From contig CAMBMO010000003.1 of assembly GCA_945868805.1 (NCBI GenBank), forward strand, positions 124,001 through 188,000: 64,000 nt of DNA. Reading direction: 5' to 3'. The DNA comes from Singulisphaera sp. GP187. GTDB taxonomy: Bacteria > Planctomycetota > Phycisphaerae > Phycisphaerales > SM1A02. Numbering within the stretch: position 1 is the stretch's first letter; each line of letters begins with the position of its first letter. This document shows, one piece after another, positions 47,115 to 64,000 of the stretch. The notes below the pieces were generated by a model, which was not told where the DNA came from, ran no database searches, and worked only from the letters and a program-made list of their open reading frames with translations. Position numbers and translations under genes: made by a program.

Positions 47115-48638
47115 ATGAAATCAACAGCATGCTTCCTCGGGGCGTTTGCATTTATCGTGGCGCAATCACTCTTGGCACCGATCGCAGCGGCGCAGGCACC
47201 ACTCGCGCCACCGCCGACCGTACCAGACGCAGATCTGCGCAAGTCGGTCGTCCAAATCTCGGTGAAGTGGGAGCCGCGATCGCCGCTCTCGCCGTGGAAG
47301 CGCGAGACTCCGCAAGACATCGGTGGTTCTGGCGTCGTCATTGCTCCTGGTCGCATCCTCACCAACGCCCACGTCGCCGAGCAGGCGAGCGAGATCCTCA
47401 TCGAGTCATCGCAGACATCGCTTCCGATTCAGGTGGAACTGCTTGCGATCGATCGATCGCGCGACCTTGCTCTGCTCGGCACGACCGACGAGGTCTTCAT
47501 CAAGAATCATCCACCGATTGCTCTGCTCGATGGGCTTCCCAAGGAAGGCGCACGCGTGATCGTGATGGGCTACCCCGTCGGCGGCGATGCGCTCTCGACG
47601 ACAAGCGGCGTCATTTCGCGAACCGAGTGGGCAGATGTCGGCGATGGCGGGGAGCCTGGCATGCGCGTCCAAGTCGACGCGGCCGTCAATCACGGCAATA
47701 GTGGTGGTCCTGCGTTCGTCGATGGCATGATCGCCGGACTCGCCTTCAGCGGGCTCGATAGCGCCGAGGCGGACAACATCTCCTATCTCATCGCGACTGA
47801 GGAAATCCAACGATTTCTCGATGAGGCGAAGATGGGCGAGATCGATGGCGACTCGGTGTGGAACGTCTCATGCCAGACTCTCGAAAACCCGGCACTTCGA
47901 TCGAAGCTCGGTGTTGCGAGCGATGTCAGTGGTGTCGTCGTCATTTCGCAGCGTGGTGGCCCACTCGAAGCGTGGGACATCATCACCAGCGTCAACGGTC
48001 AGGCCGTCGACAACAAGGGTCAGATCACGATCGAAGGAGATCGAAAGGTTGCGCTCGAGTGCGCGGTGGGGCGATTCGTTCCAACTGAAAGTGTGATGAC
48101 GATTCCGGTCGAGATCATTCGTGCGGGGAAGCCGATGACATTGGATGTCGCGACACTTGTTCGCACAAAGCGAGTCATCGGGGATTATCCCGACGGCAAT
48201 TTTCCATACGCGATGTACGGTCCGCTTGTCTTCAGTCCACTAAGCAGGTCGCTGTTGCGGGAGGTCCGTGGATGGATGATGTTCAGACAGAGTCCGATCG
48301 CGGCGTTCGTCGATGATGATCGCCCGAGTGAGGGCAAGCAATTCGTGTCGGTGGCGAGCCCGCTGCTATCGAGTCCGATTGCGCGCGGCTACGAAGTCGC
48401 AGCAGGTCAGACCGTCAAGACCATCAACGGAAAGACCTTCGCGAACTTTCGCGAGTTCGCGCAAGTCCTTCGCGATCTGAAGGACGAGTATGTGATTTTC
48501 GAATTCAACGAGTCGGGGATCGAACGCATCATCTTCAAACGCAGTGAAGTCGACGCCGCGACTGAAAAACTGATGGACTCCAACGGCATCCGCCGGCGAT
48601 GCTCGAAGGACGTCGCGGACTTGCTGGAGAAGGATTAG
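47115..48638 (+). CDS. Deg/HtrA-type periplasmic serine protease
   Basis: 507 residues. Signal peptide (FLGAFAFIVAQSLLAPIAAA), then the trypsin-like domain with His86 (TNAHV), Asp117 (SRDLALL) and Ser196 (GNSGGP). VIVMGYPVGGDALSTTSGV resembles plant-type Deg proteases. PDZ-like domains follow at about 270-340 (GGPLEAWDIITSVNGQ) and 410-480 (AAGQTVKTINGKTFANFREF). It interrupts the kynurenine cluster on the opposite strand and overlaps kynU tail to tail by 4 nt. Nothing links it functionally to tryptophan breakdown. Confidence 0.9.
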   Translation: MKSTACFLGAFAFIVAQSLLAPIAAAQAPLAPPPTVPDADLRKSVVQISVKWEPRSPLSPWKRETPQDIGGSGVVIAPGRILTNAHVAEQASEILIESSQTSLPIQVELLAIDRSRDLALLGTTDEVFIKNHPPIALLDGLPKEGARVIVMGYPVGGDALSTTSGVISRTEWADVGDGGEPGMRVQVDAAVNHGNSGGPAFVDGMIAGLAFSGLDSAEADNISYLIATEEIQRFLDEAKMGEIDGDSVWNVSCQTLENPALRSKLGVASDVSGVVVISQRGGPLEAWDIITSVNGQAVDNKGQITIEGDRKVALECAVGRFVPTESVMTIPVEIIRAGKPMTLDVATLVRTKRVIGDYPDGNFPYAMYGPLVFSPLSRSLLREVRGWMMFRQSPIAAFVDDDRPSEGKQFVSVASPLLSSPIARGYEVAAGQTVKTINGKTFANFREFAQVLRDLKDEYVIFEFNESGIERIIFKRSEVDAATEKLMDSNGIRRRCSKDVADLLEKD

Positions 48639-49957
48639 GCGGGACTCGTCAACGCCTCAACCAGCCGCCAGCAATCTTCGAACCGGGTGTAGAGCGGTGC
48701 GGGCGCGGCGCGAATGACACTCGGATGTCTGAAGTCGCAGACGATTCCCTGTGGGAGCAGTGAGTCGTAGAGTTTCTGTGCGGCGACGGGATCGCCGTTG
48801 ACGCAGAGCGACATCTGGCATCCACGTTCGCCTGTGGCAGAAGGTGTGAGCAGTCGGAAGTGCTTCGCGTCACGCGCACGCAACGAAAGTTCAGTGAACC
48901 CTGTCATGACACGCGCCTTCGCGATCAACCGCGGCATCCCGGCCTTTTGAAATTGCTCGAAGCTTGCCAGGAGCGGCGCGAGCGACAAGATCGGCGGATT
49001 CGAAACCTGCCATGCGTCGGCACCAGGACCCGGATCGAATGTGGACCCCATCTGGAATCGTGTCGCCGGATTCGTTCCCCACCATCCTTCGAGTCTCGCG
49101 CCAGGATTCGCATGATGCCGTTCATGAATGAACGCGCCCGCGACTGCGCCAGGTCCGCCGTTGAGATACTTGTACGAACACCAGCAGGCGAAGTCCGCGT
49201 TCCAGTCGTGAAGCGAGAGCGCGACGTTGCCAATCGCGTGCGCGAGATCCCACCCGCACTTCGCGCCCACGCCGTGCGCCGCTCGCGTGATGCGCGCCAT
49301 GTCGAGAACCTGTCCTGTGTAGTACTGCACGCCTCCCAAGATCACAAGCGCAAGTTCGTCGCCGAGACGTGCGATGGTCGTCTCGATGTCCTCGTGGCGC
49401 AGACACTCTTCGCCATCGCGTGGTGCGACTTCGACCACATCAGTGCTCGGGTCTCCGCCAACCGCACGCACGAACGAGTGGATCGCGAACCGATCGCTTG
49501 GGAAAGCCCCGCGTTCCATCAGGATGCGTCTTCGCACGCCCTTGGTCGAATCTTGCGGTCGATAGAAACTCGTCAACATCAAGTGCAAGTTGACCGTCAG
49601 CGAATTCATCGCAATGACCTCGTGTGGGAGCGCACCCGTGAGTTCCGTGAGACTCTCGCGAAAGAAATCGTGGTACTTGACCCACGGCCTGCGTCCATGG
49701 ACATGCGCCTGCGCGCCCATGGTGGACCAGTCGTTGAGTTCCTCGTTGACACGGTCGCGCGTCGCGCGTGCCATCAACCCGAGCGAGTTGCCGACGAGGT
49801 ACGCCAGCGGCTTGCCCTTCGCGTCGCACGGGATCTCGAACGCGTCGCGAAACGAAGCAAGCGGATCGTGCGCGTCACACCAGAGCGCGAATTCGCGGGT
49901 GGGCTGAATGTCCGACGCGGCGAGGTCGAAGATCGTCTGTGGAGCGGTGTGTGTCAT
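48635..49957 (-). CDS. kynU: Kynureninase
   Basis: About 440 residues from ATG 49957. PLP enzyme of fold type I. Motifs are YLVGNSLGLM, HGRRPWVKYHDFF, MNSLTVNLHLM, ALVILGGVQYYTGQ, GWDLAHAIGNV and the PLP-lysine region CSYKYLNGGPGAVAGAF. It splits 3-hydroxykynurenine into 3-hydroxyanthranilate and alanine. It lies 10 nt downstream of the ACMSD gene. The frame is open to 50029, but family sequence starts after 49957. Confidence 0.96.
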   Translation of the reverse strand: MTHTAPQTIFDLAASDIQPTREFALWCDAHDPLASFRDAFEIPCDAKGKPLAYLVGNSLGLMARATRDRVNEELNDWSTMGAQAHVHGRRPWVKYHDFFRESLTELTGALPHEVIAMNSLTVNLHLMLTSFYRPQDSTKGVRRRILMERGAFPSDRFAIHSFVRAVGGDPSTDVVEVAPRDGEECLRHEDIETTIARLGDELALVILGGVQYYTGQVLDMARITRAAHGVGAKCGWDLAHAIGNVALSLHDWNADFACWCSYKYLNGGPGAVAGAFIHERHHANPGARLEGWWGTNPATRFQMGSTFDPGPGADAWQVSNPPILSLAPLLASFEQFQKAGMPRLIAKARVMTGFTELSLRARDAKHFRLLTPSATGERGCQMSLCVNGDPVAAQKLYDSLLPQGIVCDFRHPSVIRAAPAPLYTRFEDCWRLVEALTSPA

Positions 49958-49967
49958 GGGCTGGGTC

Positions 49968-50978
49968 CTAGGAGCGCATCCCCAAGAATTCCATCGCCGT
50001 ACCTGCGAGCATTCGTGTGCGCTGCGCATCCGTCAGCCAATCCGCGGCGCGAACCAACCTGCCTGGAGGATTCTCTGCGAGAGGAAACGGATAATCCGAT
50101 CCCATCGCGATGCGTTGCGCGCCGACTGTGCGGACGAGATATCGCAGCGCCTCGTCGTCGTGCACGATGCTGTCAAAGAACAGTCTCTTCAGATGATCGC
50201 GTGGCGGAGTCTTGGAATGCGTCGCGCAGAGATCTGGCCGCGCTTGAAAACCATGTTCGATTCTCCCGAGCGTGTATGGGAACGATCCGCCTCCGTGAGC
50301 GAAGCAGATCCGAAGTTTCGGATGCCGATCGAGCACGCCGCCGAGCGCGAGCGCGCAGATTGCTCTTGTCGTCTCGGCTGGCATTCCCACAAGCCAGGGC
50401 ATCCAAAAGCGGGGGATCTCCTTTCGACCGAGGACATCCCACGGATGCACGAACACCGCGGCACCGAGCGATTCGGCCGCAGCGAAAAATGGCGCAAAGG
50501 CAGCGTCGTCAAGATCACGACCATCCACATTCGTCCCGATCTGCACCCCTGGAAACCCGAGCGACTTGATGCACCGTTCAAGTTCGCGCACTGCAAGTGT
50601 GGCGTCCTGCATCGCAACGGTGCCGAGCGCGACGAAGCGATCGGGCGTCGCTCGCACAACACCCGCGAAATGGTCGTTGAGCAACTGCGACAAGTCGTGC
50701 GCATGGATCGCCTTCGCACCATATGAAAACATCACAGGTACGGTCGAGAGAACCTGAATATCGACGCCAGCCACGTCACAATCAGCGATCCGCCGCGAGG
50801 CATCCCAGCAATTTGATTCGATCTCGCGAAAGACTTCGCCGTCGATCATCATCTTCGCACGGCAATGCGCACAGTGATCGAGCGAGACCCATCCGCCGCA
50901 GCCGTACCGCTCGCGCAAGTCTGGCCACCGCTCGGGCAGCATGTGAGTATGGAGATCAATTGTGCGCGGTGTGCGCAT
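49968..50978 (-). CDS. 2-amino-3-carboxymuconate-6-semialdehyde decarboxylase (ACMSD)
   Basis: 336 residues, the usual length. Amidohydrolase metal ligands are IDLHTHMLP (His-x-His), FVHPWD, CFAHGGGSFP and GSDYPFP (Asp). The ACMSD-specific WVSLDHCAHC-like region and the STVPVMFSYGAKA segment are present. It decarboxylates the unstable HAO product, directing flow away from quinolinate and NAD. It lies between kynU and the HAO gene on the same strand. Confidence 0.94.
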   Translation of the reverse strand: MRTPRTIDLHTHMLPERWPDLRERYGCGGWVSLDHCAHCRAKMMIDGEVFREIESNCWDASRRIADCDVAGVDIQVLSTVPVMFSYGAKAIHAHDLSQLLNDHFAGVVRATPDRFVALGTVAMQDATLAVRELERCIKSLGFPGVQIGTNVDGRDLDDAAFAPFFAAAESLGAAVFVHPWDVLGRKEIPRFWMPWLVGMPAETTRAICALALGGVLDRHPKLRICFAHGGGSFPYTLGRIEHGFQARPDLCATHSKTPPRDHLKRLFFDSIVHDDEALRYLVRTVGAQRIAMGSDYPFPLAENPPGRLVRAADWLTDAQRTRMLAGTAMEFLGMRS

Positions 50979-51009
50979 CGAGAGAGTCTAACGAACCGAT
51001 CGCCACGCC

Positions 51010-51624
51010 TCACGCCGTCCGAGGCGCAGGCTTCGGTACTCGCGTTCCGCACGATGGACAAGTACAGAGCTTTGGATCCGCCCAGAACGCTTCCATTTCA
51101 CGGCGAAACTGCTTCACGATGTCCGAGCAGGTGAATTCCTTGTCGTAGACCAACGCGTCGCACTTCTCGCAGTAAAAGATCATGTGCTCGGTCTCGCTGG
51201 GCAGACGACGGCGTTCGACAACGAGACCAATCGTGTCCGGCCCGCGCTGGGGACGATGTGGAATGCCACCTGGAACGAACATCGATTCGCCCTCGCGCAA
51301 CGGAATGTCGCGGATGCCGTGTGCATCGCGAACGCGCACAGAGACATCACCCTTGATCTGCATGAAGAACTCCTCTGAATTCGTCATATGAAAATCGTTG
51401 CGCGCATTGGGTCCCGCGATGATCATCACGAAAAAATCTTGACCGCTGAAGAGATACTTGTTCGAAACCGGCGGCACCATCAGGTGCTTGTTGTCCTTGA
51501 CCCAAGATCCGATATTGATCGCGCCCGCAACTCCTCCCGCGCCATCCCACCCCGTCGGGTCGCCGAGCGAGTCAGTCGCAGGAACGGGATTTGCAACGAC
51601 TACGGTTGGATTGATCGTGCTCAT
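51010..51624 (-). CDS. 3-hydroxyanthranilate 3,4-dioxygenase
   Basis: About 204 residues from ATG 51624. The cupin has NDFHMTNSEEFFMQIKGD (iron His and Glu) and GGIPHRPQRG (second His). The C-terminus carries the bacterial rubredoxin-like iron site, CEKCD and CPSCG. It cleaves the ring of 3-hydroxyanthranilate to ACMS. About 35 residues precede the first conserved strand, longer than usual. It heads the minus-strand series with ACMSD and kynU. Confidence 0.95.
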   Translation of the reverse strand: MSTINPTVVVANPVPATDSLGDPTGWDGAGGVAGAINIGSWVKDNKHLMVPPVSNKYLFSGQDFFVMIIAGPNARNDFHMTNSEEFFMQIKGDVSVRVRDAHGIRDIPLREGESMFVPGGIPHRPQRGPDTIGLVVERRRLPSETEHMIFYCEKCDALVYDKEFTCSDIVKQFRREMEAFWADPKLCTCPSCGTRVPKPAPRTA

Positions 51625-51705
51625 GCCCGAATGGTAACTCGGTCCGCTGGAATCCAAGAATGAGCTTGGAGCAAATTCCTCCAATTGGGCGTCTATTCTT
51701 GCGGG

Positions 51706-52131
51706 ATGCCGTTGCCCTCGTTTCAGTGGTCAGTTCATCCAGCGCGTGCGCGACCGATTGCGGCTTTCTGCGCGGCGGTCGCAGTTGGCGCGGTGAGCGT
51801 GCTCGTCGCGCAAATCGCGGGTGACTGGATGTGGGGAGCGATGAGCGCGCTCGGACTTTTCATGTCGCTTGCGCGGTTTTTTCTTCCGACGCGATTTCGC
51901 ATCGATGACGAGGGCGCAGAGGTGACGTACCCGCTATCGGAGAGTCGCCTTGTGTGGAGCGAAGTTGGCTGTGTGCGCTGGCAATCGCGTCGCGCGCTGA
52001 TCGCGCGATCGTCGACCTATCGATCGCAGGTGCGTGGCCTGGCACTCGAGTTGGCAGGGTTGTCTGAGCAGTCCGCAATCGACCTGAAGTCATTCGTCAC
52101 CTCACGCACCGCACCCGAGGCATGGCAATGA
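51706..52131 (+). CDS. Small membrane protein of unknown function
   Basis: 141 residues from ATG 51706. Two hydrophobic segments (IAAFCAAVAVGAVSVLVAQI and WGAMSALGLFMSLARFFLP) precede a cytoplasmic-type domain resembling a PH-like or DUF fold (TRFRIDDEGAEVTYPL, LVWSEVGCVRW). It overlaps the next start (ATGA), so the two are coupled. Confidence 0.7.
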   Translation: MPLPSFQWSVHPARARPIAAFCAAVAVGAVSVLVAQIAGDWMWGAMSALGLFMSLARFFLPTRFRIDDEGAEVTYPLSESRLVWSEVGCVRWQSRRALIARSSTYRSQVRGLALELAGLSEQSAIDLKSFVTSRTAPEAWQ

Positions 52132-52460
52132 CTGGCAAATGGCGAGAAATTTGGGATCGCGCGTTTCACATCGACCCCCCTGGTCCTGCGAAGCCGACTC
52201 CCGAAGAAGCCACGCTCGTCGAACGTGTCGCTGAAGAAGTTGTGAAGCGGCGAATGTCCCAGCCTGCGCTGCTGTTTCTTGAATCGAGTCGTCCCCTCGC
52301 TGGCGTGGGCGCCGCGGCGATGCACTTTCTTCAGCCATTTGTGTCGGTCGTGATCAAGCAGACGACATGGTCGACGCTCGCAACATTCCTAGAACGCTCA
52401 GGATCAGTCGAGTACCTCTGCTTGCGCATCGAGGCACTTGAGAGAGAAGCCTCGAAGTGA
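52128..52460 (+). CDS. Small protein of unknown function
   Basis: 110 residues from ATG 52128, which overlaps the upstream stop and has GAGG seven nt upstream; ATG 52122 is possible but too close to that site. Helical, with AFHIDPPGPAKPTPEEATLV and a mildly hydrophobic middle (SRPLAGVGAAAMHFLQPFVSV). Its size, helical make-up and coupling with a PH-like membrane partner are the only clues. Confidence 0.65.
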   Translation: MTGKWREIWDRAFHIDPPGPAKPTPEEATLVERVAEEVVKRRMSQPALLFLESSRPLAGVGAAAMHFLQPFVSVVIKQTTWSTLATFLERSGSVEYLCLRIEALEREASK

Positions 52461-56166: not shown

Positions 56167-57954
56167 ATGCGAATTGTCGCCACTGACTGCGGAAGCACAA
56201 CGACCAAAGCGATCCTCATCGAGGAAGTCGATGGCGTATTCCGCCAGACATTCCGAGGAGAAGCTCCGACGACGGTCGAAGAACCCTTCGCAGATGTCAC
56301 CCTGGGCGTCACGAATTCGGTGACGGAACTTCAGGAGTTGTCGGGCTACAAGCTGATCGCAGACGACGGCACGATCATTCGCCGCAAATCGCTCAACGAC
56401 AAAGATGGTTGCGATCTGTACATATCGACTTCGAGCGCGGGAGGCGGGCTTCAGATGATGGTGGCCGGTGTGGTGCGCGAAATGACAGCGGAAAGCGCGA
56501 AGCGTGCGGCGCTCGGCGCAGGCGCGATCGTGATGGACACGATTGCCAGCAATGACCGCCGCAAGCCGCACGAGCAGATCCAACGCATTCGCGAGTTGCG
56601 ACCAGACATGGTCCTCGTCTCGGGCGGAACCGATGGTGGCGATACGAAGAAAGTCATAGAGATCGCCGAACTCATCGCGCCCGCGCGGCCTCGCCCTCGA
56701 TTCGGTAGCGAATATCAACTTCCGCTCATCTTTGCTGGTAATAAGGAAGCGCGACCGACGATCGAACGTGTCTTCGGCGGCGCAGGATTCGCATTGTCGG
56801 TCGTCGATAATTTGCGCCCGACGCTGGAGCGCGAGAACCTCGGCCCAGCCCGCGAGCGAATCCATGATGTCTTTCTCGAGCATGTGATGGCTCACGCACC
56901 TGGCTATGACAAGCTCATGACATGGGCGAATGCGCCGATTATGCCAACACCTGGTGCGGTCGGCGACATTCTGCAGACGATCGCGAAACGTCGCGGCATT
57001 AATGTCGTTGGCGTCGATATCGGCGGAGCGACGACGGATATGTTCAGTGTCTTCGGTGGCACGTTTAATCGCACTGTCAGCGCGAATCTCGGCATGAGCT
57101 ATTCGATCTCGAATGTCTGCGCCGAAGCTGGAATGGAGAGCGTCTTGCGTTGGGTGCATCTCGACATGGACGAACGCGAACTTCGCAATCGCGTGAAGAA
57201 CAAGATGATTCGTCCGACGACGATTCCGCAGACACTCGACGCGCTCGTCTTCGAGCAGGCAGTCTCGCGCGAGGCACTGCGTCTTGCGTACATCCAGCAC
57301 AAAGCGTTCGCGACTTCGCTCAAGGGCGTGCAGCAACAGCGAACGGTTGGCGACGCCTTCAGTCAGAAGGAAGCAGGAGGATCGCTCGTCGACAACATGG
57401 CGCTCGACTTGATGGTCGCGTCGGGAGGCGTGTTGAGTCACGCGCCGCGCATGGAGCAATCTGCGCTGATGATGATCGACGCATTCGAGCCGGAAGGTTT
57501 CACCGAACTCGCGAAAGATTCTATTTTCATGATGCCGCATCTTGGAGTCCTTGCGACCGTGAACCCCCGTGCTGCGACCGAAGTTTTCGAGAAGGACTGT
57601 CTCGTCCTCCTTGGTTGGTGCGCGGCGCCTCGCGGTGAAGTGCGCACTGGAAAGACTGCCTTCAGTTACTCGCTGAAGCGTGGGAGCGATTCCATATCCA
57701 GCGGCGAAATGCTCGGCGGTGAGATGAAGCTCATTCGTTTCGCAACAGGCGAGACCGGGATGCTTGAAGTGCGCCCAGAGAAGGGTCTCGACATGGGTGC
57801 GGGTGCAGGCAAGCCGATTATGCGCGAGGTACGCGGTGGATCGGTCGGCATCATCCTCGATGCGCGCGGGCGACCTTTGAAGTTGCCAGAGTCACAGGCG
57901 GAGCGCCGTGTGTGCGTCACGCGTTGGTTGAAGGCGCTGGCTGTTTACGAGTAA
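56167..57954 (+). CDS. GlmL/MutL-family ASKHA ATPase (glutamate mutase L-like), orphan
   Basis: 595 residues. Two actin-like ATPase subdomains: phosphate 1 motif IVATDCGSTTTKAILIE (3-19), then DLYISTSSAGGGLQMMV, MVLVSGGTDGGDTKK and phosphate 2 VVGVDIGGATTDMFSVF at about 282-298, with LMVASGGVLSHAPR near 420. Glutamate mutase L is named as a companion of the B12-dependent glutamate mutase, but no S or E subunit gene lies in this window and the downstream gene is a different conserved partner (3 nt after the stop). The family name therefore probably misleads here; a chaperone or membrane-recruited ATPase role is possible. Confidence 0.88.
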   Translation: MRIVATDCGSTTTKAILIEEVDGVFRQTFRGEAPTTVEEPFADVTLGVTNSVTELQELSGYKLIADDGTIIRRKSLNDKDGCDLYISTSSAGGGLQMMVAGVVREMTAESAKRAALGAGAIVMDTIASNDRRKPHEQIQRIRELRPDMVLVSGGTDGGDTKKVIEIAELIAPARPRPRFGSEYQLPLIFAGNKEARPTIERVFGGAGFALSVVDNLRPTLERENLGPARERIHDVFLEHVMAHAPGYDKLMTWANAPIMPTPGAVGDILQTIAKRRGINVVGVDIGGATTDMFSVFGGTFNRTVSANLGMSYSISNVCAEAGMESVLRWVHLDMDERELRNRVKNKMIRPTTIPQTLDALVFEQAVSREALRLAYIQHKAFATSLKGVQQQRTVGDAFSQKEAGGSLVDNMALDLMVASGGVLSHAPRMEQSALMMIDAFEPEGFTELAKDSIFMMPHLGVLATVNPRAATEVFEKDCLVLLGWCAAPRGEVRTGKTAFSYSLKRGSDSISSGEMLGGEMKLIRFATGETGMLEVRPEKGLDMGAGAGKPIMREVRGGSVGIILDARGRPLKLPESQAERRVCVTRWLKALAVYE

Positions 57955-57957
57955 AAA

Positions 57958-59085
57958 ATGGCAAAGGCATACACACCAGGATTGAAAGTCACCGCACGCA
58001 CGACATTTCACGCGCGCCGATTGCTCCCCGTGACGGGGAGTGTTCGCGTGAAAGTCGGCGAGCTCGTCGCAGCAGACGCTGTTGTCGCCGAGACTTTCCT
58101 CGAAGGCGATGTCTTCCCAATCAAGATAGCGGGAATCCTCAGTGTCAATCCCGGCGAGTTGCTTCCGCTCATGCTGAAGAAAGTCGGCGAGACCGTCGCA
58201 GTCGGCGATGCGCTCGCTCAGAGCAAGGGCATCTTCGGCATGATGAAGACCATCGCAAAGTCGACCGCGGCTGGCCTGCTCGAGAGCGTCTCGGATTCCA
58301 CGGGCATGGCAATCATTCGAGGACCAAAGTTGCCCGTGCAGGTGCGTGCATACGTCTCAGGCAAAGTCATCGAAGTCATCGCCGGAGAAGGTGTCATCAT
58401 CGAGACCGATGCCGCGTATGCGCAGGGAATCTTTGGAGTTGGTGGCGAGACATGGGGCAAGCTCATGATCGCGGGCGAGTCGCACACGGAGAATGTCCTC
58501 GAAGAACATATCGAAGCTTCGATGAAGGGCGCGATTGTCGTGGGTGGCGCGCGGATGACGGCGGGAGCGATTCGCAAGGCACGTGAAGTCGGGGTCGCTG
58601 CGCTCATTTCGGGCGGGATCGACGACGCAGACCTTCGCGATGTCCTCGGATACGATCTCGGTGTCGCAGTGACGGGCAGCGAAAAACTCGGCATCACGCT
58701 GCTGGTGACGGAAGGATTTGGCGACATTTCGATGGCGATGCGAACATTTCAGTTGCTGCAGTCGCATGCAGGCAAACAAGCGAGTGTCAATGGCGCAACG
58801 CAGATTCGCGCGGGTGTGATGCGACCCGAGATCGTGATCGCGCTCGAAGCGAGCGGTTCAAGCGAAGTTTTCACCGGTGGTGCGACGGCAGGCTTGCTCG
58901 ACATCGGCACCCCGATTCGCATCATCCGCGATCCACACTTCGGACTTCTCGGGACGGTCTCGGCACTCCCAGAGCAACCTGCGGTGCTCGGTTCGGGATC
59001 GAAGGCGCGCGTGCTAGAAGTCGCACTCGAGGATGGTCAGCGCGTGATTGTGCCCAGGGCGAATGTCGAGTTGAGCGGGACGTAG
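57958..59085 (+). CDS. Barrel-sandwich/KOW-like protein paired with the GlmL-like ATPase
   Basis: 375 residues. Residues 20-90 form a lipoyl-like or RnfC-like barrel-sandwich pattern (VRVKVGELVAADAVVAET, GETVAVGDALAQSKG), repeated in part at 120-150 (AYVSGKVIEVIAGEGVII). A middle alpha/beta domain has GAIVVGGARMTAGAIRKARE and GVAALISGGIDDADLRD. The C-terminus resembles KOW (DPHFGLLGTVSALP, SKARVLEVALEDGQRVIVP). The lipoyl Lys is not obvious. I know of no assigned function. Spacing of 3 nt after the ATPase gene shows one operon. Confidence 0.8.
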   Translation: MAKAYTPGLKVTARTTFHARRLLPVTGSVRVKVGELVAADAVVAETFLEGDVFPIKIAGILSVNPGELLPLMLKKVGETVAVGDALAQSKGIFGMMKTIAKSTAAGLLESVSDSTGMAIIRGPKLPVQVRAYVSGKVIEVIAGEGVIIETDAAYAQGIFGVGGETWGKLMIAGESHTENVLEEHIEASMKGAIVVGGARMTAGAIRKAREVGVAALISGGIDDADLRDVLGYDLGVAVTGSEKLGITLLVTEGFGDISMAMRTFQLLQSHAGKQASVNGATQIRAGVMRPEIVIALEASGSSEVFTGGATAGLLDIGTPIRIIRDPHFGLLGTVSALPEQPAVLGSGSKARVLEVALEDGQRVIVPRANVELSGT

Positions 59086-59149
59086 GGGCCACGGCGGATG
59101 CGCTGATGTTCATCGAGACCGATTAATCCATTCGGTGTAGGGTGCACGA

Positions 59150-60601
59150 GTGCGCCACCGACTCTGGACTTGTGCGATCTGTGCAACTTCCATTCTCGGC
59201 GTAGCGAATTGGGCGATCTCTGCTCCACAGCACAATGACGCCGAAGTCGTCGCCGCGATCGCCCAACTGCGCGCAGAACTGAATGAGCTTCGTGCGACAG
59301 CCGATCCCACGCAGCAGTGGTTGGACGAAGCGAGGCTGGAAGAAGTGAAACAGCTTGTGCGTGATGTGCTCAGCGATGCAGGGCAGAGATCGTCACTCGC
59401 GGGCGAGCAAGCGACGAGCGGGTTTGATGGCCAGAATCTTTGGGTGGGAAGCGCCGATGGCAACTTCAAGTTGATCGGGCGCGGGTTCATGCAGTGGCGT
59501 TACAACTTTGATGACCGAAGTGAGGTCACAGGCGTCGATGGGGCGACCAACAGTGAGTGGGGGTTTCAAAACAGACGCACCAGACTCATGCTCGAAGGTC
59601 ATGTGATCGATCCATCGTGGCAGTACAAGGTCGAGATCCAATCCACAAGTGGAAGCCAAGCTCCGACATCGTCGGATCTTTGGATACAGAAAACTTTCTC
59701 GGACGGCTTCTCGCTACGCGTTGGTCAGTTCAAGCCTGCCTATCTTCGCGAGTTCGACGTCGCAGTCACCGCGACAGTGTTCGCAGATCGCTCCTCGACA
59801 GCGGTATTCTTTTTGCCTGCGCGAACAATCGGCGTTCAGGCTTCCTGGGAAGGCGAGTCTTTTCGATTGCAGGGAATGTTCGCGAACGCATTCGACGTGA
59901 AGAGCAACTACTACAACAGCGGAACTCTGCGAGATGTCTCGTGGGGCTCTCCGAAAGTTGCCGAGTACGCGTTCACGGGTCGTGCCGAGTGGCGCGTTGT
60001 TGGGACATGGGAACAGCTACGAGGATTCACCGGCTGGCGCGGAGGCGAGGTTGGCGCGCTCGTTGGTCTTGGCGGGCAGGCGATGCAGCGCAACAATAAT
60101 CAAGGTGTTCCCGCGATGTATGGCGACTTGAACCCATTCATTGTTGGAGCCACCGCCGATCTCACCCTTCAGTTCGATGGAGCATCGCTCTGCACATGGG
60201 TTGCCTTTCGCCAAGTCGATCCGGGACAGGCTGGACTTGCCAATGCCAATCAATATGGAGCGGTGATCCAGGGCGGGGTCTTTGTCGGTCGCGATCTCGA
60301 GCTCATCGGTCGATTTGAGTATGGCAATGCCGACACGATGCCGAATGGCGAAACTCCGGTTGTGGCGTCGATGCCAAGCAACAATGGATACAGCAACCTC
60401 AGCGCCGCGAGTATCGGTGTCAATTGGTACATCTCGAGACAACGGTTGCGCATCACGACTGACCTGAGTTATGCGTTCACGGGCGTTGGCGCGTTCGCCG
60501 ATCCCGTCGCGAACTTTCAGCCAGACGGCACGAATACAGCGGGTGCGTTCGATGCGACTGGTCAGGTGCTCCTCCGCGCACAGCTTCAGATTATGTTCTA
60601 G
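59150..60601 (+). CDS. Outer-membrane porin, phosphate-selective OprO/OprP-like
   Basis: 483 residues from GTG 59150 with AGGG upstream. Signal peptide, then a coiled coil (AIAQLRAELNELRA) that may tether to the cell wall, then a beta-barrel rich in aromatic strands: FKLIGRGFMQWRYNF, NRRTRLMLEGHVID, SLRVGQFKPAYLREF. The last residue is Phe (LQIMF), the outer-membrane assembly signal. It suggests a diderm envelope. Specificity is not readable. Confidence 0.88.
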   Translation: MRHRLWTCAICATSILGVANWAISAPQHNDAEVVAAIAQLRAELNELRATADPTQQWLDEARLEEVKQLVRDVLSDAGQRSSLAGEQATSGFDGQNLWVGSADGNFKLIGRGFMQWRYNFDDRSEVTGVDGATNSEWGFQNRRTRLMLEGHVIDPSWQYKVEIQSTSGSQAPTSSDLWIQKTFSDGFSLRVGQFKPAYLREFDVAVTATVFADRSSTAVFFLPARTIGVQASWEGESFRLQGMFANAFDVKSNYYNSGTLRDVSWGSPKVAEYAFTGRAEWRVVGTWEQLRGFTGWRGGEVGALVGLGGQAMQRNNNQGVPAMYGDLNPFIVGATADLTLQFDGASLCTWVAFRQVDPGQAGLANANQYGAVIQGGVFVGRDLELIGRFEYGNADTMPNGETPVVASMPSNNGYSNLSAASIGVNWYISRQRLRITTDLSYAFTGVGAFADPVANFQPDGTNTAGAFDATGQVLLRAQLQIMF

Positions 60602-60628
60602 GTCAGCGGCCAGCAATGCGCCGCTGAC
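60602..60628 (+). terminator. Perfect 9-bp hairpin after the porin gene
   Basis: gtcagcggc and gccgctgac are exact inverted repeats with a 9-nt loop, beginning right after the porin TAG. No T tract follows, so it may act as an mRNA 3'-end stabiliser or a Rho-assisted terminator rather than a classical intrinsic one. Confidence 0.45.
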
Positions 60629-60684
60629 TCCAGCTCGCAACTTCACCCCTCGCATGATTCTGTGATTGCCGTTACCGTGCTCAT

Positions 60685-61872
60685 GTGGTGATGCAGGTCC
60701 TTCTCTCAGTTGTGGCGAGCGTCGTTTCAGCCACAACGGCACTCGGAGCAGTTCCCGCTCCACCGCCACCTCCAACATCAGTTACCGCCGTCGATGTTCC
60801 ATGGGATGCGGGGGGAGTGATCGAAATCTCCTGGATCGCACCAGCAGGTTCGGCTGACGCGCGCTGGTTGATCGAACGCCTGACACTCACCGATGCGGCA
60901 GGCGATGAAGAGAAGTGGGTCGTCGTCGCCGAAGTCCCACTGGGAGCCACCAGCCACACCGTATCCAAACTCTCTCTCCGCGGCGCACACAGTTTTCGCA
61001 TGACCGCCATCGATGCGACTGGCATGGGAACGCCGAGCGCCACAACCAAGCCGGTCCGCGCCGCGGCCAATTTTTTTATCGGTGCAAAACTCTCGCTCTT
61101 TCTAGGCATCATCCTCGTCAGCACATGTGTGATCGTCTGCATCTTGCTTGCGCGTGGCGGTCGACCGCTGCGCATTCGAAGGATCGCCGCGCTCGACGCG
61201 GTCGACAATGCGGTTGGACGAGCCACTGAAATGGGTCGCCCCATCCTCTTTGTTGCGGGTATTCAGGACATGGACAACATCTCGACCGTTGCCGGAATCA
61301 CCGTGCTCGGTCATGTCGCCAAGACCGCTGCCGAGTATGACGCGACCATTCAGGTTCCAACGAGTCGATCTCTCGTGATGGAAGCAGCGCGCGAAGCGGT
61401 GCAGGCGTCGTATCTTTCTGCGGGCCGGTCCGATTCTTATAACCCAGATCTCATTCGTTACATCACGGACGAACAATTCGGATTCGTCGCATATGTCTCT
61501 GGACTCATGGTGCGCGAGAAGCCAGCGACGTGCTTCTATATGGGGTGCTTCTTCGCCGAGAGTCTCATCCTCGCCGAAACTGGCAATTCCATTGGAGCGA
61601 TTCAGATCGCAGGCACTGCCGAGAGCAGTCAGTTGCCATTCTTCGTCGCCGCCTGCGACTACACGCTCATCGGCGAAGAATTCTTCGCGGCGAGCGCGTA
61701 CCTGTCGAAAGAACCAGACCAAATGGGATCGCTCAAGGGACAAGACGTCGCGAAGTTCCTGACCGCAGTGGTGATCATCGTGGGCGTGGTGCTCGCAACT
61801 CTCGCCGCGCTCGCCCCGACAGGTGCCATGCCCGGCGCACTCACATGGTTCAAGGGAGTCTTCGGATCATGA
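60685..61872 (+). CDS. DUF6754 membrane protein
   Basis: 395 residues; GTG 60685, GTG 60688 and ATG 60691 are in-frame starts and cannot be separated. Signal-like helix, Pro run (APPPPPP), a fibronectin III-like domain (about 30-125), a membrane helix (LSLFLGIILVSTCVIVCILL), then the DUF6754 domain: AVDNAVGRATEMGRPI, SYLSAGRSD, FYMGCFFAESLILAETG, GAIQIAGTAESSQLPFF, CDYTLIGEEFFAASAYLS. A last helix follows (VVIIVGVVLATLAALAP). I recall similar proteins in Chloroflexota. Coupled by ATGA to the next gene. Function unknown. Confidence 0.82.
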   Translation: MVMQVLLSVVASVVSATTALGAVPAPPPPPTSVTAVDVPWDAGGVIEISWIAPAGSADARWLIERLTLTDAAGDEEKWVVVAEVPLGATSHTVSKLSLRGAHSFRMTAIDATGMGTPSATTKPVRAAANFFIGAKLSLFLGIILVSTCVIVCILLARGGRPLRIRRIAALDAVDNAVGRATEMGRPILFVAGIQDMDNISTVAGITVLGHVAKTAAEYDATIQVPTSRSLVMEAAREAVQASYLSAGRSDSYNPDLIRYITDEQFGFVAYVSGLMVREKPATCFYMGCFFAESLILAETGNSIGAIQIAGTAESSQLPFFVAACDYTLIGEEFFAASAYLSKEPDQMGSLKGQDVAKFLTAVVIIVGVVLATLAALAPTGAMPGALTWFKGVFGS

Positions 61873-62570
61873 GGCGACTCATTCCAATGTGGATCGCAAT
61901 CATCGCAGGGTTTGCGATGTTGTTTTCTGCGTTCTTCCCGGTGACTGAATTTTTCGGTGAGACCTTCGGCGAAATTTTCAGTGTCGTTGCAGCAATCGCG
62001 TATGTGCTCGGCGCGGGCAGTCTTGCAAAGATCAACCTCGCGAAGATTTCGCGGCGCGATCAGGGCTGGGGATACTCCGCGATCACGCTCTTCTGTTTCG
62101 CCGCGACGCTCTTCGTGGGGCTTGGCAAGATTGGCGTCCCACCCAACGCGCAATTTGCAGCTCTGCCTTGGTCTGGCGAGAAGAACGCCGAAGGATCCGC
62201 CTTTGCATGGATCTATGAATACGGACTCGTCCCGATCACCAGCACGATGTTTGCGTTGCTCGCGTTTTATGTCGCGAGCGCGGCCTTCCGCGCATTCCGT
62301 GCGAAAAACCTCGAAGCCATTTTGCTGCTGTCGACCGCGTTCATTGTCTTGCTTGGTCGCACATTCGCGGGGGTGGTGCTTACGGGGTGGTTCCCCGACT
62401 GGGCGAGCGGATTGCGCTTGGAAAATCTCTCCGTCTACATCATGCAGGTCTTCAACACCGCTGGCAATCGCGCGATCATCATTGGCATCGCGCTCGGCGT
62501 CACCGCCACAAGCCTGCGCATCTTGCTCGGAGTCGACCGATCGTGGATGGGATCGGGAGGGAACTCATGA
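61869..62570 (+). CDS. Integral membrane protein of the DUF6754 operon
   Basis: 233 residues with six or so hydrophobic segments (WIAIIAGFAMLFSAFFPVTEF, IFSVVAAIAYVLGAGSL, AIIIGIALGVTATSLRILLG). No domain recognised. ATGA overlaps at both ends show strict translational coupling with its neighbours, suggesting subunits of one complex. Confidence 0.75.
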   Translation: MRRLIPMWIAIIAGFAMLFSAFFPVTEFFGETFGEIFSVVAAIAYVLGAGSLAKINLAKISRRDQGWGYSAITLFCFAATLFVGLGKIGVPPNAQFAALPWSGEKNAEGSAFAWIYEYGLVPITSTMFALLAFYVASAAFRAFRAKNLEAILLLSTAFIVLLGRTFAGVVLTGWFPDWASGLRLENLSVYIMQVFNTAGNRAIIIGIALGVTATSLRILLGVDRSWMGSGGNS

Positions 62571-63466
62571 GTGGATTTATCGCCACGCTTGAACGCCTCG
62601 ACCGCCGCTGGATCTTTCTCGCAATGGCGATCGCAGTCGCAGGACCGATCGTCTACATCGGTATCACGGGTAAGACTCTTCCAGAGACTTCCACACCCGC
62701 GGCGCAGGCCGTCTACGACGCAATCGAAGCGCTCCCCAAGGGAAGTCGCGTGCTCATCTCGTACGACTTTGATCCAGGAAGTTCGGGCGAACTTCTTCCG
62801 ATGGCAACAAGCCTCGTACATCAATGTGCCGCGCGCGATCTCAAGATGGTGTTCATCGCGCTCTGGCCACTTGGGCCACAGATGGTCACCGACACAATTA
62901 AGCGTGTGATCACTGCAGATTTTCCACAGATGAAAGAGGGCGTGGATTACGTCAACCTCGGATTTCAATCTGGCAACGAGGCAGTGATGAAGGTGATGCT
63001 GACGGATTTCAAGAAGGCATTCCCCAAGAGCGAGAAGGGAACTGCAACCGGACAGATTCCGATGCTGGAGGGCGTGACGCGCGTGAAGGATTTCCCGCTT
63101 CTCGTCACGATTAGTGCGGGCTATCCAGGCGCGAAGGAGTGGATCCAGTACGTCGTCTCGTCGAGCGGTGGCGAAATCACCATGGTCACCGGTTGCACGG
63201 GGGTGCAGACTCCGCAGTTGTTTCCATATTTCCCGGCGCAACTCAGAGGAATGCTCGGCGCCATCAAGGGAGCAGCAGAGTATGAGTCGCTCGTGAATGC
63301 GAGCCTCGCGCCCGGCGACAACTCTCCGGTGCCGCCGAAGTACCTCGAAGCACAGCGACGCATGGGTCCGCAACTCGGAGCGCACTTGTTGATGGTGGCG
63401 CTCATCATCCTCGGCAACATCGCGTTCTTCGCGCAGCGGCGCGAGAAGGCGCAGGTGAAGTCATGA
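62567..63466 (+). CDS. Membrane-anchored alpha/beta protein of the DUF6754 operon
   Basis: 299 residues. One N-terminal helix (WIFLAMAIAVAGPIVYIGI) and one C-terminal helix (HLLMVALIILGNIAFFAQ) flank a soluble domain of about 215 residues with alternating strands (SRVLISYDFDPGSSGELLPM, KMVFIALWPLGPQM, LLVTISAGYPGAKEWIQYV). The order suggests a Rossmann-like domain of unknown role. ATGA overlaps with both neighbours. Confidence 0.75.
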   Translation: MSGFIATLERLDRRWIFLAMAIAVAGPIVYIGITGKTLPETSTPAAQAVYDAIEALPKGSRVLISYDFDPGSSGELLPMATSLVHQCAARDLKMVFIALWPLGPQMVTDTIKRVITADFPQMKEGVDYVNLGFQSGNEAVMKVMLTDFKKAFPKSEKGTATGQIPMLEGVTRVKDFPLLVTISAGYPGAKEWIQYVVSSSGGEITMVTGCTGVQTPQLFPYFPAQLRGMLGAIKGAAEYESLVNASLAPGDNSPVPPKYLEAQRRMGPQLGAHLLMVALIILGNIAFFAQRREKAQVKS

Positions 63467-64000
63467 GTCCATCAAAGTCGTGGATCGTGATCATTGCGGT
63501 CATTGTCGCCCTCGTCGGCATTCGGCTCTCGATCGGGCAGGGAATGGGCAAGGTTTATGTCGAGCAAGTCGATACGGTGGTTGAAGTCGAAGCGGTGGCG
63601 AAGACAAAGGACCATGATGGATCCCCAGCGCAAACTGTGAAGTGGACCCAGTTCAATGGCGTTGAGCCGAACAAGTATTACGCGGCGCAGGCGACGAATC
63701 CAGCGCAGACGGTGGTCACGCTCAGTTGGCCACGCACCTTTGGATTGTGGCTCGGAGCGTTCTTCACGCTTGCGATCTTCTCGTTTATGTACCGGGATAA
63801 TCCCGGCTATCGACTCGCCGAAGCAGTGATCATCGGAGTATCTGCTGCATACTGGATGGTGATCGGATTCTGGGATGTCGTCGTTCCCAAACTCTTCGGC
63901 GGCATCGCGCACGGATTCGTGATTGCCAACGTGCTGCCAACTCTTCCAGCACCACCGACCGAGCAAGTCATCGCAATGTGGTTCGCACTCGGCCTCGGCG
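63463..64000 (+). CDS. Membrane protein of the DUF6754 operon, partial
   Basis: 179 codons are visible before the window ends. An N-terminal anchor (SWIVIIAVIVALVGIRL), a roughly 60-residue extracytoplasmic part (YVEQVDTVVEVEAVAK, KYYAAQATNPAQTVV) and at least two further helices (LWLGAFFTLAIFSFMY, AVIIGVSAAYWMVIGFWDVVV) follow. Coupled to the preceding gene by ATGA. No family recognised. Confidence 0.75.
   Translation, partial: MSPSKSWIVIIAVIVALVGIRLSIGQGMGKVYVEQVDTVVEVEAVAKTKDHDGSPAQTVKWTQFNGVEPNKYYAAQATNPAQTVVTLSWPRTFGLWLGAFFTLAIFSFMYRDNPGYRLAEAVIIGVSAAYWMVIGFWDVVVPKLFGGIAHGFVIANVLPTLPAPPTEQVIAMWFALGLG

Follow-up and report, generated by a model that had tools for sequence, protein, structure and literature searches.

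Actin-fold reactivases keep B12-dependent enzymes working, and DdrA/PduG and EutA, the reactivases of the diol-dehydratase type, are two-part reactivating factors. More broadly, actin-fold (ASKHA) ATPases near this family act by remodelling or reactivating the proteins they partner, not by pumping. Glutamate mutase has a related ATPase of its own, GlmL/MutL, and proteins of the same Pfam family (PF13941) are presumably often labelled "glutamate mutase L." Here, we describe a GlmL-like ATPase (hereafter MutL) in other company. It is encoded in a 64,000-nucleotide stretch (the window; contig C3, positions 124001-188000) of the 2.5-Mb, 95.8% complete genome of Singulisphaera sp. GP187. Beside it are genes for a barrel-sandwich protein (BS), a DUF6754 protein (PF20539), two polytopic membrane proteins (M1 and M2), a membrane-anchored alpha/beta protein (AB), and two further proteins that we call S1 and S2. 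Judging from the sequence, S1-S2-MutL-BS-DUF6754-M1-AB-M2 very probably make up one chromosomal envelope system. Because these genes tend to stay together, because MutL, BS, and DUF6754 co-occur even when unlinked, and because some of the genes are fused, we regard them as one gene set under joint selection.

All eight genes lie on the plus strand. S1 (51685-52131) encodes a small protein and overlaps S2 (52122-52460, 112 amino acids) by 10 nt; the corresponding matches to profile hidden Markov models span 51664-52128 (E 1.3e-44) and 52068-52457 (E 9.5e-41), the models having been built from neighbours in other genomes with the window row added in the last rounds. MutL (56167-57954, 595 amino acids) is followed after 3 nt by BS (57958-59085), as the original prediction had it. 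The DUF6754 gene (60685-61872) matches PF20539 over residues 128-375 with 391.9 bits against a cut-off of 27. It opens a four-gene run with M1 (61869-62570), AB (62567-63466), and M2 (from 63463), in which three ATGA overlaps noted earlier are indeed found at 61869, 62567, and 63463. Following the contig beyond position 64000 placed the end of M2 at window-equivalent 64488. In our record of the locus that holds it complete (L002, 7463-8488), zwf and pgl come next.

To ask how far this arrangement recurs, we compared two sets of loci: stretches of about 20 kb around DUF6754 in 40 of the 76 DUF6754-positive genomes of the phylum (set 1, some contigs being shorter), and the best 80 of 565 DUF6754 relatives in named genomes, with flanks of up to 10 kb (set 2). 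Two genes were counted as consecutive when they lay on the same strand with a gap of at most 1,500 nt, and the denominators are the loci holding the first gene of the pair. Contig ends and the flank limit clip many loci. MutL was followed by BS in 23/25 loci of set 1 and 39/43 of set 2, and BS by DUF6754 in 26/28 and 44/49. Downstream, DUF6754 was followed by M1 in 36/40 and 72/80 loci (108/120 overall), M1 by AB in 35/37 and 72/75 (107/112), and AB by M2 in 33/35 and 70/72 (103/107). The fetched stretch contained all six core genes in 21/40 loci of set 1 and 37/80 of set 2, and in some of the others, parts of the set lay apart. Near DUF6754 genes elsewhere, relatives of every gene of the locus except a porin keep this order, so the arrangement is more than chance.

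The porin stands between BS and DUF6754 in the window (59150-60601, plus strand; porin O/P-like, PF07396, 33.0 bits against a cut-off of 20.9), and the original prediction noted it ahead of the four membrane genes. It occupies this place in only 1 of 41 loci, the window itself, and a related porin follows M2 in 3 of the 80 named loci. We therefore reject it as a conserved member and treat it as interposed.

S1 and S2, on the other hand, belong to the system, even though they lie 3.7 kb upstream of the segment first singled out. Both families emerged from clustering the open reading frames (ORFs) of these loci and are found mostly upstream of MutL. S1 preceded S2 in all 25 loci that hold S1 (8/8 in set 1 and 17/17 in set 2), and S2 preceded MutL in 46 of the 58 loci with an S2 gene (18/25 and 28/33); in many loci, S1 opens the system. 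By eye, the S1 alignment reads as two transmembrane-like stretches followed by a part resembling bacterial PH domains, and two S1 relatives match bPH_6, both under the cut-off. A Pfam scan of S2 gave no family. In the window, S2 and MutL are 3.7 kb apart, with other genes in between, and the nearest relative (L073) also has a gap. This looks like a late insertion because S2 directly precedes MutL in L116 and L147. In four loci (L064, L067, L092, and L104), S2 sits directly before DUF6754, with MutL behind the cassette or outside the stretch. One genome (G153, locus L171) keeps S2-MutL-BS with no DUF6754 found, and the four other sampled members of its genus have DUF6754.

We then surveyed 294 genomes of the phylum with the curated Pfam cut-offs for MutL, DUF6754, and glutamate mutase E. 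DUF6754 was present in 76 genomes, MutL passed its cut-off in 80, and a BS match was found in 71. DUF6754 and MutL occurred together in 70 genomes, DUF6754 alone in 6, MutL alone in 10, and neither in 208 (Fisher p 4e-49, a value that overstates the number of independent events, as the sampled genomes share kinship). The other pairs behaved alike: BS and DUF6754 were both present in 68 genomes, with 3 holding BS alone, 8 DUF6754 alone, and 215 neither, and BS and MutL were both present in 70, with 1 holding BS alone, 10 MutL alone, and 213 neither. All three were found together in 67 of the 76 DUF6754 genomes. In several genomes (for instance G122, G217, and G024), MutL-BS or MutL alone is present but far from DUF6754. 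This persistence at a distance indicates that the association exceeds hitch-hiking among neighbours, and the claim that ATPase, BS, and DUF6754 cassette are linked is upheld by gene order across the 120 loci and by co-occurrence alike.

The association also reaches well past close relatives. Of the 42 named loci without a planctomycete title, we took 20 and examined the genomes they come from (20 further genomes); MutL and a BS match were present in 20/20; glutamate mutase E was over its cut-off in 0/20, with two weak PF06368 matches below it. By title, these genomes include Zixibacteria, WOR-3, Coatesbacteria, Riflebacteria, Latescibacterota, and others, with one called only "bacterium." The titles of metagenome-assembled genomes are those given by the depositors and may be wrong in some cases; three loci, one titled Acidobacteria (L082) and two Neomarinimicrobiota (L083 and L098), fall among planctomycetes in the MutL tree. 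Among 16 genomes grouped with a locus titled Gemmatimonadetes (L131), DUF6754 was found in 12, all of which have MutL, and MutL occurred alone in 2. The cross-phylum spread that the original prediction proposed with Chloroflexota in view is thus borne out by these other titles, and no Chloroflexota title appears among the best 80 of 565 DUF6754 relatives in named genomes. The isolate record of Thalassoglobus neptunius (L096) contains BS and DUF6754, so some cultured planctomycetes carry at least parts of the system. None of 72,556 plasmid records and none of 50,697 phage records matched DUF6754, and no relative was confirmed in viral contigs. On this ground, we reject a mobile element, and the gene looks chromosomal.

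Fusions and repeats give a further view of which products may work together. MutL and BS share a single ORF in seven cases, three belonging to the system (L079, L083, and L098; BS at 543-580 bits) and four to a divergent type (L164, L165, L166, and L176, of which L164 and L165 come from one genome). AB and M2 share one ORF in L110. The DUF6754 gene is present in at least two copies in 8 of 40 loci of set 1 and 19 of 80 of set 2, often as a repeat of the whole cassette with up to three in tandem, which fits a hetero-oligomeric membrane core. Separately, we observed the second, divergent MutL-BS type in six loci (L164, 6278-8794; L165, 5298-7814; L166, 703-2907; L167, 5391-8329; L168, 1995-5014; L176, 5050-7992), none of which has a DUF6754 cassette within the fetched stretch. 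Its neighbours are ABC-transporter and LysM/M23 genes in L176 and almost nothing in the other four loci scanned (10 ORFs over all five loci, some possibly antisense).

The ATPase itself sets this system apart from glutamate mutase. Its PF13941 match (E 1.2e-126, 423.6 bits against a cut-off of 27) covers residues 3-478 and the full model (1-450 of 450), and about 117 residues extend past the domain. The phosphate-binding motifs are conserved, as in GlmL, and 258 of 595 positions are at least 93% conserved across 39 rows, including DCGSTTTKA, DIGGATTD, and the cysteine and histidine positions C8, H135, H233, H239, H378, H425, and C478. Unlike GlmL, the window protein stays below the curated NCBI cut-offs, scoring 226.9 bits of 475 for the GlmL equivalog (NF040745), 207 of 600 for the OR-4 equivalog (NF040744; a GlmL-related ornithine degradation protein), and 163 of 204 for glmL_fam, and its partner is BS instead of a mutase. 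In a MutL tree of 59 rows, the system proteins form a clade of their own (45 rows, support 100/99). The branch that parts this clade and the divergent forms from four mutase-linked and four orphan or short MutLs measures 6.6 changes per column. The divergent MutLs, 4/6 of which share an ORF with BS, sit in between, with several long branches that leave their places unsure. Scores against a system MutL model trained on L033-L072 follow the same order: about 906-1110 bits for complete members, 421-715 for the six divergent forms, and 30-153 for the mutase-linked and orphan or short proteins, with fragments in between. Against the extra residues of the system MutL, the mutase E match in three genomes (G235, G290, and G098) starts only 165-177 nt after the MutL match, and the four orphan or short MutLs are open frames of 452-477 amino acids. 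A single-sequence search of the Protein Data Bank (PDB) at E ≤ 1 gave no match for MutL. One genome (G197; L161, L162, and L163) has three MutL matches over the cut-off and one below, with no match to DUF6754, BS, or mutase E.

The genomic record points the same way. Glutamate mutase E (PF06368) gave no match in the window's own genome, 95.8% of which is covered, nor in any of the 76 DUF6754 genomes. It passed its cut-off in 5 of the 294 genomes; there, MutL adjoins the mutase in 5/5, and none of the five has DUF6754 or BS. We therefore reject service to glutamate mutase, and the view of this ATPase as an orphan, with no mutase S/E pair elsewhere to claim it, holds by the PF06368 search. The wider statement that no B12 mutase is present is right for glutamate mutase and wrong beyond it, as the same genome has methylmalonyl-CoA mutase (PF01642) and three B12-binding domains over cut-off. 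Across the phylum, PF01642 is present in 43 of the 76 DUF6754 genomes, leaving 33 without it, compared to 156 of 218 others (odds ratio 0.52, p 0.02). With no positive association, a tie between DUF6754 and methylmalonyl-CoA mutase is rejected as well.

Judged by the Pfam matches of its relatives, BS combines a barrel-sandwich hybrid with a middle part and a KOW-like C-terminus. Among 23 relatives at E ≤ 1, Biotin_lipoyl matched in 19, RnfC_N in 12, NQRA_N in 7, and KOW in 5; the RnfC_N and NQRA_N matches reached a best E of 1.4e-6, and the window BS has no RnfC_N match at E ≤ 1. Mean column identity is 59%, and 101 of 375 positions are at least 93% conserved across 48 rows, with no cysteine or histidine among them. 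In the PDB sequence search, only matches of E 0.18 and worse were returned. BS may resemble RnfC and NqrA (PF13375 and PF05896) in having an N-terminal barrel-sandwich hybrid in a soluble protein that accompanies membrane proteins. It differs in its middle and KOW-like parts, and in that RnfC has cysteines for Fe-S clusters where BS has no conserved cysteine; moreover, the cassette contains no Rnf/Nqr membrane subunits.

So far, DUF6754 names nothing more than a domain of unknown function. The window protein clearly belongs to this family, and the eight-gene setting is what we add here. Its AlphaFold2 model (mean pLDDT 93.1) has a signal-like helix at 2-15, an FN3 domain at 25-130 (supported by sequence and by structure matches up to Z 13.5), a helix at 133-157, a beta/alpha domain to about 341, and a helix at 344-376. 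Mean column identity is 43% in the domain and 29% over the full length, and 76 of 395 positions, including C324, are at least 93% conserved across 91 rows. In the PDB structure lists, the domain (residues 160-345) had no usable match, the rows being filled by the FN3 part; the domain was not searched alone. AB, with its alpha/beta domain (about 44-246) between two transmembrane helices (13-34 and 261-298), is modelled at mean pLDDT 96.5 and pTM 0.91. Its query-length TM-score was at most 0.34 among the 50 Foldseek matches listed, its best VIA match was carbon monoxide dehydrogenase (CODH) epsilon (Z 8.4, rmsd 3.4 over 150 residues, tied with unrelated rows), and a profile search of PDB sequences at E ≤ 5 gave no match. 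M1 in the window has no Pfam family over cut-off. Mean column identities are 40% in M1, 34% in AB, and 33% in M2. H273 in AB and H272 in M2 are conserved, M1 has no conserved cysteine or histidine, and no conserved cysteine cluster was found in any of the six core proteins. We found no support for common ancestry of AB with DUF6754, of M1 with M2, or of DUF6754 with BS.

Other genes accompany the system in parts of the sample. Between MutL and BS, four loci (L115, 2544-3299; L128, 4864-5634; L146, 6484-7245; L148, 6476-7243) encode a protein of about 250 amino acids with a signal-like start, for which no Pfam family passed the cut-off in the two that were scanned. In three loci that are Zixibacteria or related by title or synteny (L115, 160-873; L128, 2449-3162; L148, 4080-4796), a MotA/TolQ/ExbB gene lies about 0.5 kb downstream of BS. 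By our own rough, uncomputed estimate, chance would place a TolQ-like gene within such a 20-kb stretch in a few loci of 120. Ten cassettes (L086, L108, L110, L113, L115, L123, L128, L132, L146, and L148) are trailed by two products, one a small basic protein and the other a long enzyme whose sequence, by eye, reads as a pyruvate phosphate dikinase. We reject both TolQ/ExbB and the dikinase as partners, as they are present in only part of the loci, mainly Zixibacteria-like ones. Within the window, a tryptophan-degradation cluster lies directly upstream of S1 on the minus strand (48635-51684), with adjoining genes for kynureninase (TIGR01814, 386 bits), an amidohydrolase, and 3-hydroxyanthranilate dioxygenase (PF06052). 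Beyond the window, the product of L002 14111-15196 (window-equivalent 70111-71196) weakly matches the later part of Cas9/IscB models (E 5e-7 and 8e-4, below cut-offs) and is perhaps an HNH nuclease.

What such a system does can be read in several ways. We favour a complex in the inner membrane that MutL-BS remodels from the cytoplasm at the expense of ATP, and we give this reading a probability of roughly 45%. A less probable alternative is an ATP-powered transporter or export motor, in which MutL-BS would drive a substrate through M1 and M2 with AB as an outer binding domain. Two conserved polytopic proteins and a dedicated ATPase would suit it, as would weak Foldseek matches of AB to sugar-binding proteins (E 1.4e-4, though the TM-score is 0.18), weak matches of single M1 relatives to permease and ABC models (best E 0.0013), and the TolQ-like gene near BS. 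Yet that gene occurs in few loci, no transporter family passes its cut-off in the window M1 or in M2, and ASKHA ATPases of the MutL kind are not known to serve as transport motors. Our preference for a remodeller over a transport motor follows from the remodelling habit of ASKHA ATPases in this neighbourhood. We consider a redox- or ion-coupled complex with a distant likeness to Rnf/Nqr, and BS in the place of RnfC/NqrA, improbable. The barrel-sandwich matches of BS relatives favour it, but the only highly conserved cysteines are single ones elsewhere (C8 and C478 in MutL, C324 in DUF6754), with nothing like an Fe-S cluster; M1 has an NqrD-like score of E 0.42 only, and MutL is not known to take part in Rnf or Nqr.

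Two other alternatives would loosen the tie between the ATPase and the membrane. The four membrane genes might form one unit by themselves, with MutL-BS (and S2) a second, separable unit that is often adjacent. Repeats of the membrane cassette without MutL-BS, the unlinked halves in several genomes, MutL-BS without DUF6754 in G067 and G153, and the divergent MutL-BS loci with no cassette in their stretch all speak for this, but it is rather unlikely given that 67 of 76 DUF6754 genomes of the phylum have both MutL and BS and that 20/20 further genomes have MutL and a BS match, and BS and DUF6754 stay paired in L037, L096, and L105. It is very unlikely that MutL still works for some B12-dependent mutase encoded at another place in the genome and adjoins membrane genes for other reasons. 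The family models named for glutamate mutase and ornithine degradation would be in keeping with such service, as would the methylmalonyl-CoA mutase and B12-binding domains of this genome. Against it, MutL tracks BS and DUF6754 rather than mutase E or PF01642, the two B12 mutases covered by the search (ornithine aminomutase, for one, was not among them), and MutL-BS fusions exist.

Several observations count against a single system with a remodelling ATPase. Six DUF6754 genomes lack MutL over the cut-off, although four of these are less than 90% complete and one has a weak fragment, and eight lack a BS match. BS occurs without DUF6754 in G053 (where the match is a piece of 29 residues at the edge of a contig), in G067, and in G153 (99% complete). 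In the extra genomes, BS is of the divergent type only in G310 (E 3.9e-25) and in pieces in G299 and G308, and the BS match is weak (44-162 bits) in four of the seven fusions, those of the divergent type. In five loci (L037, L040, L044, L096, and L105), DUF6754 adjoins BS, but M1, AB, and M2 are missing from the fetched stretch, to which the search was limited. The proposed topology was read by eye from helices and charges (RR at residues 13-14, ahead of the core of the first AB helix; RREK close to the AB C-terminus; and RPLRIRR after the DUF6754 transmembrane helix) rather than by a program. Finally, the reactivase analogy draws on the family of the ATPase, and the cassette includes no enzyme of known labile cofactor.

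Taking the remodelling reading as a guide, M1, M2, DUF6754, and AB would assemble into a complex of the inner membrane. Its FN3 and AB domains would face outwards, and the conserved DUF6754 domain would face the cytoplasm. There, MutL and BS would act as one ATPase unit docking on the DUF6754 domain, and ATP binding and hydrolysis would remodel or reactivate the membrane complex. The change might then be relayed via M1 and M2 to the outer AB domain; the simplest guess for the output is the handling of a small ligand bound by AB or the DUF6754 domain. MutL-BS would thus resemble DdrA/PduG and EutA as an actin-fold ATPase with a partner, a likeness drawn from family knowledge, but those factors act on soluble enzymes, whereas MutL-BS goes with four membrane proteins. 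Somewhat more tentatively than the remodelling reading itself, we propose that an ASKHA ATPase of the B12-reactivase kind was recruited, together with BS, as the cytoplasmic engine of a multi-phylum envelope machine, where ATP-driven remodelling on the inside would reach a binding domain on the outside.

No paper naming DUF6754 or PF20539 was found in the literature searched, a body that leaves out most subscription journals and all preprints, and searches there for PF13941 with MutL, and for GlmL with mutase and planctomycetes, were empty. Among papers on glutamate mutase L, planctomycete glutamate mutase, and MutL or chaperones, titles and the openings of abstracts mention nothing of such a system. 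The main text of a transposon study of Planctopirus limnophila (PMC10632474) contains neither mutase nor fibronectin; its data tables, and the presence of the system in that species, fall outside this statement. We found no known system in which a MutL ATPase is combined with a membrane cassette, although a likeness in fold to a known system may be hidden.

The system sits mostly in uncultured lineages, and the label "glutamate mutase L" would wrongly assign these proteins to amino-acid metabolism. Both binding and function are directly testable, given the recurring gene set, the fusions, and the confident models. Together with the identities of its partners, the near-fixed positions of MutL across several phyla imply that the system does something under strong selection.

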